64,000 nt of DNA from Candidatus Jordarchaeales archaeon (GTDB lineage: Archaea; Asgardarchaeota; Jordiarchaeia; Jordiarchaeales; Freyrarchaeaceae), in assembly GCA_038889235.1 (NCBI GenBank), contig JAWAHN010000001.1, forward strand, positions 406,499-470,498. Reading direction: 5' to 3'. Position 1 is the stretch's first letter, and the number at the start of each line of letters is the position of its first letter. The notes under the pieces were generated by a model. The model was given only the letters and a program-made list of their open reading frames with translations, did no database searches and was not told the origin of the DNA. This document shows positions 9,040 to 39,763 of this stretch, in pieces. The position numbers and the translations under genes are program-made.

Positions 9040-9278
9040 GCACAAACCCCTCTTTCTTCAGAGAGATACAAGATATGATAGATAAGTGAGAAATAAGGTT
9101 TTTTATGTGAGAGCTCTTGACGACGGAAACCTTCTTGTTGCATGGTAACAAGGGGTGTTCGGTGTATGTCGGATTCCGATCACGCGTATTTGTCGCGTTA
9201 ATCGTCGTGGGAGTGAGGCATAAGCTTGCAGGCATTTTCTGAAGACACGAATTTGTGTTGTTTTCCTTTTGAAAACCC

Positions 9279-32752: not shown

Positions 32753-34693
32753 TTGGGAAGTGAAATTACTCCTCGCATAGGTGTCTTCATATGCCACTGA
32801 GGCAAGAACATAGCTGGCGTCATCGATGTCGAAGCGCTCAAAGACTATGTTTCAACGCTGAAGGATGTCGTCTGGGTTGAGACCTACATTTCTCTCTGCA
32901 CACACGCCGGGGCGGAGCTGATAAAGGCGAGGGTGGAGGAGCACGAGCTGAACAGGGTGGTTGTCGCGGCGTGCACCCCTAAAACCCACGAAGAAGTCTT
33001 TAGGAGAGTGTTGCTCGAGGCTGGTCTGAGCCCCAGCATGTTGGAGTTCGTGAATATCAGGGAACACGATTCCTTCGTCCATATGACGGATCCCAAAAGC
33101 GCCTTAGAAATGGCTAAGGACGTTATAAGGGGAGCGGTGGCTAAGGCGAGACTTCTTGAAGAGATACCACGCATGCTACTTCCCGTGACCCCCAGTGTCC
33201 TCGTGATAGGGGGAGGCATAAGTGGCATACGGGCTGCGCTCGAAGTGGCTGAAAGCGGGTTCAAAGTGTACTTGGTTGAAAAAAGTCCGACGATCGGCGG
33301 GAGAATGGCGATGCTTGACAGAACTTTTCCAACGAATGACTGTGCCATCTGAATACTTGGCCCGTTAATGCTTGAGACTGCCAGGAGGGAGGAAGTGGAA
33401 ATTCTCACTTATAGCGAGGTCGAGTCGGTTGAAGGAAACGTGGGGGACTTCAAGGTTAAGGTTAGGAAGAAACCGAGGTATGTTAACGAGGAGCTCTGCA
33501 ATAGCTGTGGGGCATGCGCTGAGGTCTGCCCTGTTTTCATACCGAGTAGCTTCGATCTAGGGCTTGGAGTGAAGAAGGCGATACACCAGCCGTTTCCACA
33601 GGCTGTCCCACAAACGTACCTCATAGACATTGAGAGGTGTATAAGGTGCGGGCTGTGCGAGAAGGTGTGTGACAAGAAGGCTATAGACTTCAACCAAAAG
33701 GAGCAGGTAATTGAGCTGGAGGTCGGAGCTATAATAGTGGCTTGTGGCGGTGATTCCTATACGCCGAGGTTCGGTGAGTATGGCTACGGCAAGTATGCCA
33801 ACGTGATAACTCAGTTCCACTTGGAGAGAATGCTTGCCCCGAACGGACCAACGGGTGGAGAGGTTGTGAGGCCATCTGACGGAAAGAAACCTAGAAGAGT
33901 TGTCATGATCCAGTGCGTTGGCTTTAGAGATATGAAGAGGAACGAGTATTGTTCCAACGTGTGCTGCATGGTGGCTATCAAAAACGCGATGCTATTAAAG
34001 CAGCACTTGCAGGATGTCGAGGTCTTTGTCTGCTATACTGACGTGAGGTCGTACGGTAAGGGCTACGAGGAGTTCTATGTTCAGGCGAGGGAACATGGTG
34101 TTATATTCCTAAGGGGGCGCGTTGGAGAGGTCGTCGAGGACGCCGATACAGGTGAGCTCTTAGTAGTGGTCGAGGACACGCTTTCAGGCAGAGTAATTGA
34201 GCTAAGAGCTGACCTAGTCGTCCTCTCAACAGGAGTTGTGCCATCAAGTGACTTAAGCAGGATAGCCGAGATTCTGAAGCTCGAGCGGAGCCCAGATGGA
34301 TTCATAAAGGAGTTACACTCACGCTTAGCTCCAACAGACACTAAAATGCGCGGCATATATGTCTGCGGCGATGCGCAGGGGCCAAAGGCCATAGATGCGT
34401 GTGTAGCTCAGGCGAAAGCTGCCGCGGCATCTGTCATCAGCCTTCTTTCTATCGGAAAGGTGGAGCTCGAGCTTGCTACAGCAGTCGTCAAGGATGACAA
34501 GTGTAGTGGCTGTGGGCTTTGCGAGCTCGTCTGCCCCTACAACGCTATAAGCGTCGGCGACGTCGCAACGGTAAACGAGCTCCTGTGTAGGGGGTGCGGT
34601 AAGTGCGCTGCAACATGTCCCTCTAAGGCGATTTATAGGAGGGGTTACAGGGAGGAGCAGCTTGAAGCATACATAGATGAGATCGCGAAATAG
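32753..34693 (+). CDS. hdrA: Heterodisulfide reductase subunit A-like protein with two in-frame TGA codons (probable selenocysteine)
   Basis: 646 residues if both TGA codons are read, the normal HdrA length. TGA at 32798-32800 gives ICH-U-GKNIAG, where HdrA has CHCG. TGA at 33350-33352 gives NDCAI-U-ILGPLM, where HdrA has Cys in its TFPT-x-DC-x-x-C-ILTP segment. Both sit in unbroken HdrA sequence: FAD site VLVIGGGISGIRAALEVAES and VEKSPTIGGRMA, then four ferredoxin-type clusters (CNSCGACAEVCP, CIRCGLCEKVCD, CSGCGLCELVCP, CRGCGKCAATCP). HdrA is the flavin subunit that bifurcates electrons. A TTG start follows GGAGGAGGTG by 10 nt; an in-frame TAA at 32744 excludes longer forms. mvhD follows after 11 nt; hdrB and hdrC are not in the window. 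Confidence 0.9.
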
Positions 34694-36783: not shown

Positions 36784-36891
36784 TGGTAGCCCGGCCCAGA
36801 TTCGAATTCCTCCCGTGTCTGGGGTCCCGGGGTCCAGAGCCCCGGATGCTTGGCCGCTCCGCGCCCCCTAAAGGCTCTACACCACCGGGCT
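36784..36891 (-). tRNA. tRNA-Gln (anticodon CUG) with two non-canonical introns
   Basis: Acceptor arms AGCCCGG and CCGGGCT pair perfectly and are followed by an encoded ACCA. The anticodon arm is CGGGG-CTCTGGA-CCCCG, with CTG at 36835-36837. Pairing shows two insertions. The D-loop between its 4-bp stem is 29 nt instead of about 9, so about 20 nt (around 36857-36876) is extra. The T-stem CCCAG/CTGGG encloses 12 extra nt (36807-36818) before the normal TTCGAAT loop. Removing both gives exactly 76 nt. There is no intron at the canonical 37/38 position. Exact splice points are uncertain by a few bases. Confidence 0.9.
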
Positions 36892-37529: not shown

Positions 37530-39763
37530 TTACAGCGTGTCTATGTACTCCTCAGGTTTCGGCGGTTCTGGTTTCAGTCCTTTTCTCTTCCGGATTTCAG
37601 CTATTACTTCACTTAGCAGAGACTTTGGAACTTCAGCCCACCTTGAGAACTGTGTTTGCCAGAAAGCTCTGCCAGAAGTCTTTGACCGCAAGTCATTTGC
37701 AAGCCCGAAGCTTTCTCTTACCGGTATCTCTCCATTCACGAATACTAGCGGGCCACGCTGCTCTATGTTTATAACATGACCTCTGCGCTGGGATAGTATG
37801 CTTGAAACCGCCCCTATGTACTCTGGTGGGACCATTACTTGGATCTTGTATATTGGCTCGAGCAGGGTTGGCTTGGCGCTTAGGAATGCACCCCACGTGG
37901 CACGCCTGCTCATAGGCATGATTTGCGCTGGCCCTCTGTGAACGGGGTCCTCGTGCAGCTGGCAGTCCGTCACTATTACTTTAACGCCTCTCATGGGCTC
38001 CTCGGCAAGGGGACCTGCTTCGCAAGCCCATTTTATCCCTGATATTATTGTCTCCTTCACCTCACGTAGGTACTGGATGCCACGCGTCCTGTCAACTATC
38101 ACATTGCCGTACTCGTCAATCGCCCAAATGTTCCTGGCGTCATGAGGGTCCCAACCAGCTTTTTCTCTCAGAATCTTCGCCCTCTCATCTCTCTCTTGGT
38201 ACTCCGATATTTCGCCCTCCGTGAGCAGGTTTACCGTCTCCTCGTTAAGCGGCTCAACCATGATCCAAATCCTGTTGTGCTTGTTCGGGCTTTTTCCTAG
38301 TACCGGCTGGGAGGACGAGGTGACCGTTTCCCTGTAGACCACTATTGGCGGTGAGACTGTGATATCAACTTCTGACTGGATTTCCTTCAGAGCTATTTCG
38401 AGGTGTAGTTCGCCCATTCCCGAGAGCAGGTATTCTCCGGTTTCTTGATTAATCGTCGTCACTATGTTCGGGTCTTGAATCGAGATTTTCTGCATCAGTT
38501 CCACAAGTTTCGGTAGATCTTTCGGGTGTTTCGGCTCTATGGCTACGGTGACAACAGGCTCTGAAATGTACTTAATTTTTTCAAATGGAACCACGATGTC
38601 CTTTATGTTTTCGGCTACCACGGTTTCTCCAGCTCTAGCCAGCTCCAGTCCGAGCAGAGCCGCTATGTTGCCAGCTGGTATGGAACTGACTATGGCTCGT
38701 TTGGCACCCATGTAAATGCTCGTCTGCTGAACCCTGTAACCTTTCTTAGCTGTGAGCAGGTAAACTTGGTCTCCTTCACTTATCGTGCCGGAGAAAACTC
38801 TCCCCGTCGATACTATTCCCGCGTGGGGGTCGACTATAACCTTGTTTAGACAAATTACAGTTGGGCCGTTCTCATCGCACTCAAGCATCGCTTTTCCTAT
38901 CTCGCTGTTAAGGTCCCCGTGCCAGATCTTCGGCACTCTGTAGCGTTGAGCCTCAATCGGGTTGGGAAGGTGGTCGACGACCATGTCCAACACAGCAGCA
39001 TGAACCGGGAGAAGCTTCTTGAGCTCGTCTACCCTATCTTCCTTGTAATAGGCGACTATGTCACTAAACTTCAACCCTAACTCGAGCATTTGAGGAACAG
39101 TAAACCCCCACCTGTGAAGGGCTGAACCAAAGGCCACGCTACCATTAGCCGGATTAACCTTCCACTTGTTGGCGAACTCCTTCTCACCATAAATGTCGAT
39201 TAAACCATTAAAATCTCGAATAATCCTGTTAAGCTTCTCTTGGACGCCGCGCTCGTCAAGCCTTAACTCGCGGATTAAACGGTCAATCTTATTAATAAAC
39301 AATACGGGTCTGACACGCTCAGATAAAGCCTGTCGAGTAACGGTTTCCGTTTGGACGCCTATCTCCTCTACGGCATCTACCACTACGACCGCGCCGTCAA
39401 TTACTCTTAAAGCTCTCGTAACGTGCCCGGTGAAGTTTACGCGAGCGAGCCAGCCGGCTCGTTCTCTACGTGTCCGGGCGTGTCTATGAGGTTTATGAGG
39501 TACTCTTTCCCGTCGAACTTGTGCACTAGAGATATGTTAGCGGCTTTTATTGTTATCCCTCTTTTCTGCTCCTCTTCAAGGTAGTCCAATGCCCTTGCTT
39601 CTCCCGCTATCGTTGGGGAGAGTAGCCCAGCTTCAGCAAGCAGGGAGTCGCTTAGCGTTGTTTTGCCGTGGTCGACGTGTGCTATTATTCCGAAGTTCCT
39701 TATCTGCTCTTTCACTCGCATCATTCTTTCAACTTCTTCAATGTACTTCATCCTTGCAGACAA
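37530..39763 (-). CDS. fusA: Translation elongation factor aEF-2, interrupted by a 29-nt insertion
   Basis: Joining 39763-39467 with 39437-37530 gives 734 residues, the normal aEF2 length. G1 [16 protein letters not shown]2 [13 protein letters not shown]3 DTPGHV, then [21 protein letters not shown]4 NKID. Domain IV carries the diphthamide loop [15 protein letters not shown] with its His present. It drives ribosomal translocation with GTP. Unspliced, the frame stops 9 codons after DTPGHV. The TTG start at 39763 follows GAGGTGG. A second aEF2 copy is not in this window. A sequence error is unlikely because 29 nt with internal symmetry would have to be added. Confidence 0.92.
39438..39466 (-). 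other. Probable 29-nt archaeal intron within the aEF2 gene
   Basis: GTA occurs at both junctions (CACGTA before, GCGTA after), so the exact cut can shift by up to 3 nt. Inside, CGAGCC and GGCUCG form a 6-bp hairpin with loop GGCU. Further out, exon ACGU can pair with intron-end GCGU (4 bp, one G-U). This helix is flanked by 3-nt bulges AGA and AAA on opposite strands, the arrangement of a bulge-helix-bulge splice site. Cuts after the first base of each bulge would restore the frame exactly. Confidence 0.75.

Follow-up and report, generated by a model that had tools for sequence, protein, structure and literature searches.

A predicted bulge-helix-bulge intron in the elongation factor 2 gene of a Jordarchaeum genome and its counterparts in other Asgard archaea

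The gene for archaeal elongation factor 2 (aEF2) in Ca. Jordarchaeum, a member of the class Jordarchaeia within the Asgard archaea (Promethearchaeati), is interrupted by 29 nt that are very probably (about 0.93, judged from sequence) an archaeal bulge-helix-bulge (BHB) intron of the pre-mRNA, excised by the splicing endonuclease EndA and ligated by RtcB. We analyzed a 64,000-nt stretch of this genome (the window) together with the rest of the assembly (2.14 Mb, 8 contigs, 95% complete) and other Asgard genomes. The intron interpretation of the original prediction is favored by the observed sequences on several counts: excision restores a full EF2, the predicted cuts fall in BHB bulges, substitutions among relatives preserve pairing, a sister species has an empty site, changes behind the insert are exclusively synonymous, and the genome carries genes for both EndA and RtcB.

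Gene anatomy, predicted fold and splicing machinery

On the minus strand of the window, the aEF2 frame opened at 39763 runs into an in-frame TAA within the insert, and a second ORF ends at 37530, so that the unspliced gene reads as one ORF of 108 aa and another of 617 aa. The insert shifts the frame and introduces a stop in the unspliced reading of an essential gene with aEF2 sequence on both flanks, as the original prediction had it. Removal of 29 nt joins the two pieces, restoring a complete EF2 that contains the invariant motif DTPGHVDF, and the Pfam domain GTP_EFTU becomes one continuous match, as opposed to two halves before excision. A second intact aEF2 gene, which was to count against splicing, does not occur in the genome, where aEF2 is single copy. 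The insertion itself is real, but the coordinates first proposed for it, 39438-39466, are off by 1-2 nt and give HVNF, with Asn in place of Asp. Two excisions, 39436-39464 and 39437-39465, yield the invariant HVDF and are equivalent for the Asp; only with the second do both cuts follow nucleotide 2 of 3-nt bulges, making 39437-39465 the best boundaries (Table 1). The cut would then split the invariant DTPGHVD Asp codon after its first base, the predicted spliced junction joins ...CACGTAG to ACTTCACC..., and the predicted peptide spanning it is DTPGHVDFTGHV.

Table 1. Features of the interrupted aEF2 locus and the neighboring tRNA gene (window coordinates)
Feature	Position	Strand	Remarks
aEF2 exon 1	39466..39763	-	start TTG 39763 or ATG 39751; ends at first base of Asp codon in DTPGHVD; Pfam GTP_EFTU half-domain
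29-nt BHB intron (predicted), AGAACGAGCCGGCTGGCTCGCTCGCGTAA	39437..39465	-	cuts TAG^A and TAA^A; site common to G001 and G002, absent in G003
aEF2 exon 2	37530..39436	-	runs to stop codon; Pfam
Central 4-bp helix, 5' strand ACGU	39468..39471	-	
Central 4-bp helix, 3' strand GCGU	39439..39442	-	
5' bulge AG^A with 5' splice cut (predicted)	39465..39467	-	
3' bulge AA^A with 3' splice cut (predicted)	39436..39438	-	
Intron inner hairpin h'	39443..39464	-	
tRNA-Gln(CUG)	36788-36891	-	20-nt D-arm intron and 11-12-nt T-arm intron, non-canonical positions

In the transcript, ...ACGU at the end of exon 1 would pair with ...GCGU of the intron as a 4-bp central helix with bulge AG^A on one side and AA^A on the other; the body of the intron would fold into a hairpin in which 8 of 9 positions are paired. 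This agrees with the hairpin, 4-bp helix and two 3-nt bulges described at the outset. The central helix of 4 bp, the 3-nt bulges and a predicted cut behind nucleotide 2 that restores the codon are all present, and a BHB motif forms at the boundary needed in only 0.55% of dinucleotide-shuffled inserts. In the window sequence, the fold of lowest energy places extra pairs inside the 5' bulge, which counts against the BHB reading. The outer helix h at this site (site a) is weak, with a mismatch followed by AU, GU and GC; elsewhere it is absent (EF2 site b), has two pairs (site c) or has four (site d), and most cbf5 introns have three to four. The BHB intron family also takes in relaxed motifs, and the weak outer helix brings the EF2 intron close to that class; sites a and b would be relaxed BHB motifs. 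Such motifs are cut efficiently only by broad-specificity types of EndA (PMC6379350).

The genome contains two PF01974 (EndA) genes and an RtcB gene. The first EndA aligns with the alpha subunit of A. pernix across the Crenarchaea-specific loop without gaps there, carries the Lys of the KP pair in the loop and has the Tyr, His and Lys all present, and the second subunit lacks the catalytic His. The loop is important for EndA specificity (PMC6379350). The original prediction had anticipated an endonuclease of broad specificity and left its type to be identified; the gene sequences point to an (alpha-beta) EndA with a Crenarchaea-type loop, which together with RtcB makes up a predicted machinery able to act on relaxed motifs. 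The catalytic and non-catalytic subunits would cut both bulges after nucleotide 2 and RtcB would join the exons; the spliced product would be intact EF2 as a consequence of the cut position within the Asp codon. We infer from sequence both that the cell splices this transcript and that EndA and RtcB are the agents. The excised intron would probably be circularized, and we likewise infer any regulatory effect. Two or more PF01974 genes occur in 30 of the 34 Asgard genomes checked, and since most of these 34 have two, with or without mRNA introns, the enzyme type permits these introns but does not alone explain them.

A further presumed substrate of the same enzyme lies 2.5 kb from the EF2 intron. 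The non-canonical tRNA introns that had been noticed there are real: tRNA-Gln(CUG) holds two, and the gene is missed by ARAGORN and Rfam (gathering score) until they are removed. Because this tRNA needs both inserts removed, non-canonical splicing would be at work in the cell. Splicing of the EF2 transcript by another route, as a self-splicing ribozyme remnant or by some other enzyme, is very improbable, as a group I or II ribozyme would need far more than 29 nt and the geometry matches EndA substrates.

Counterparts in Asgard EF2 and cbf5 genes

The original prediction advised a check for small BHB insertions in other genes of the genome, and cbf5 carries one: 29 nt that split the catalytic Asp codon (GTL/D/P) after its first base, with bulges (AG^A/AA^A) identical to those of the EF2 intron. 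The cbf5 intron is found in all of G000-G007, which represent two families of the order, and also in G011 (family f6), in G021, G028 and G041 (f13) and in G066 (f16; 12% contamination). Shorter forms, 19 nt in G083 and 17 nt in G052, sit in additional cbf5 copies that may be contaminants. Four congeners have introns of 29, 30, 31 and 35 nt at this one position in cbf5, a set of lengths that covers all three frames.

EF2 has introns at further sites in other Asgard lineages. At site d (DTPGH/VD) the intron is 33 nt in G156 and 31 nt in G180, both of family f26. Site b (RG/ITI) holds 31 nt in four genomes of genus g17 (G023, G030, G048, G053), with a compensatory change of the central helix from GGGG:CCCC to GAGG:CCUC, and the P-loop Lys codon (site c) holds 31 nt in G017 and G070 (genus g12), with a compensatory change from AUGG:CCAU to ACGG:CUGU. 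All EF2 sites fall within the G1, G2 or G3 motifs. An EF2 match is listed for 187 of 196 genomes, and among the matches listed most of the others read through unbroken. The EF2 introns look like several separate gains. In G017, an EF2 paralogue has a 30-nt intron at the same P-loop Lys site, and the introns of EF2 and paralogue (L155, C200; L128) differ in sequence, which suggests transfer or repeated insertion.

The 27 predicted Asgard introns have a common geometry, with a 4-bp helix, 3-nt bulges, a cut after nucleotide 2 and a restored codon, and their structure is conserved under substitution, with helix changes that span exon and intron. For six representative gene/site cases, the chance of the motif arising in shuffled inserts is 0.3-2.8% each, with a product of ~4e-13 if the cases are independent. 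By predicted structure, the EF2 intron belongs to a wider Asgard set found repeatedly in EF2 GTPase-motif codons and the cbf5 catalytic-Asp codon. These comparisons also bear on the alternative that ribosomes are programmed to hop over the insert (bypassing), as they do in gene 60 of phage T4. GTA could serve as both take-off and landing codon (GTA/GAG...GTA/AAC) and the insert is predicted to be a stable hairpin; however, a GTA-to-GTA hop gives HVN, not the invariant HVD, and what the Asgard inserts share is the BHB motif and compensatory exon-intron helix changes, which bypassing does not need. Insert lengths in all three frames at one site, along with the exon-intron helix changes, argue against recoding at translation, and we regard bypassing as very unlikely.

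BHB motifs joining two coding frames were sought de novo in the window and 400 kb of the same genome (~22% in all), which recovered the EF2 and cbf5 introns. No further intron was accepted from this portion by a scan of poor specificity and limited sensitivity (2 of 7 known loci were missed among the top hits), as the other top hits inspected resemble gene junctions, non-coding frames and, in one case, a homopolymer frameshift. Five genes for EF1A-like or related GTPases, marked as having 'stops', proved intact on reading. At a run of six T, a deoxyhypusine-synthase-like gene (L215 ~9110-9140) seems to be frameshifted by 1 nt, probably through an indel introduced by sequencing. An HdrA-like gene on the plus strand of the window (~32775-34693) has two in-frame TGA codons (CH-TGA-GKN near 32797; CAI-TGA-ILGP at 33350-33352), which are probably selenocysteine.

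Shared and empty sites within the genus

Candidatus Jordarchaeum JNZ_1113 (G001) and Candidatus Jordarchaeia QC4 (G002) have a 29-nt EF2 intron at the same base as the window genome, such that three species-level genomes, each assembled separately, share the insert. The three copies differ at 4-6 positions with pairing kept: substitutions preserve or wobble pairs (GC to GU, CG to UG, AU to GU), and an A.C mismatch becomes A-U in JNZ_1113. Pairing is found in 100% of cells in the predicted register versus 17-42% when the register is slid, in a set of three few and close sequences for which a shuffle control on them alone is uninformative. Candidatus Jordarchaeum LHC_1308 (G003) has an uninterrupted site reading HVDF; placement of this intron-less genome in Jordarchaeum has only 42-62% support and changes from gene to gene, so its empty site may reflect either a gain in the others or a loss here. 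Across the 18 codons that follow the intron there are 7 and 8 synonymous changes but none that alters an amino acid, as expected if those codons are translated. This pattern speaks to the possibility that the gene is truly split into two polypeptides, for which the two ORFs might be taken as evidence, or is a pseudogene. The break lies inside the GTPase core, all changes in the stretch from the stop to the next start are synonymous for EF2 codons, and a pseudogene is unlikely for the sole EF2 gene of a genome; a split or decayed gene is very unlikely. Assembly error, of which raw reads lacking the insertion were proposed as a sign, was addressed through the relatives: although the genome has at least one homopolymer-type 1-nt frameshift, in the deoxyhypusine-synthase-like gene, three separate assemblies have the insert at an identical base, with 4-6 pairing-neutral differences, which leaves assembly or sequencing error with a negligible probability. 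An mRNA intron spliced by EndA and RtcB is the most economical reading.

Relation to known systems

Archaeal pre-mRNA splicing has so far rested essentially on one gene and one branch. In the open-access literature, confirmed introns are reported only in crenarchaeal cbf5, other protein-gene introns being predictions (PMC2738675), in keeping with the original remark that archaeal mRNA introns are very rare and cbf5 is the known case. We found no report of an EF2 or Asgard pre-mRNA intron in that literature; against it, the EF2 intron would extend archaeal BHB pre-mRNA introns to a new gene and a new phylum. The earlier view that none was described in aEF2 therefore stands within this scope, but the case in the window is not isolated.

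If true, the EF2 and cbf5 introns would make protein-enzyme mRNA splicing recurrent in Asgard, the archaeal phylum nearest to eukaryotes. Natural pairs of species with and without an intron make it possible to test where BHB introns came from and whether they are mobile, and EF2 and cbf5 genes in Asgard genomes are open to mis-annotation as broken. We speculate, at less than even confidence, that Asgard BHB mRNA introns insert recurrently into critical EF2 and Cbf5 codons and are perhaps mobile, that the cbf5 intron of Asgard and Crenarchaeota is ancestral or spread between them, and that EF2 splicing ties the whole rate of translation to the tRNA-splicing machinery.

The closest known system is the cbf5 intron of Crenarchaeota (Sulfolobales, Desulfurococcales), which shares a BHB-type motif (16-44 bp there), an essential Asp codon split after its first base, cleavage behind nucleotide 2 of the bulge, absence from particular lineages and a hetero-oligomeric EndA (PMC2738675). 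The position of the Asgard cbf5 intron matches this definition. The EF2 intron differs in its host gene, its phylum and the several separate sites within one gene, and splicing is predicted here from sequence. Archaeal tRNA introns at non-canonical positions, with relaxed BHB motifs (PMC6379350), are similar in size, motif and presumed enzymes, whereas the EF2 intron resides in messenger RNA, with the reading frame as a constraint. A third comparison is with inteins at GTPase or catalytic motifs, which likewise occupy highly conserved host genes and are found in EF2 and cbf5 of Asgard relatives. EF2 of G016 (L016 ~960-1490) has an intein-like P-loop insert, and cbf5 of G051, G102 and G047 (L105, L106, L107) has an in-frame insert of ~490 aa, which in G051 matches LAGLIDADG, with intein-splicing domains matching below the cut-off. 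Inteins explain some other interruptions of EF2 and cbf5 (G016, G051). Unlike the EF2 intron, they splice at the level of protein and consist of large in-frame ORFs, often with an endonuclease.
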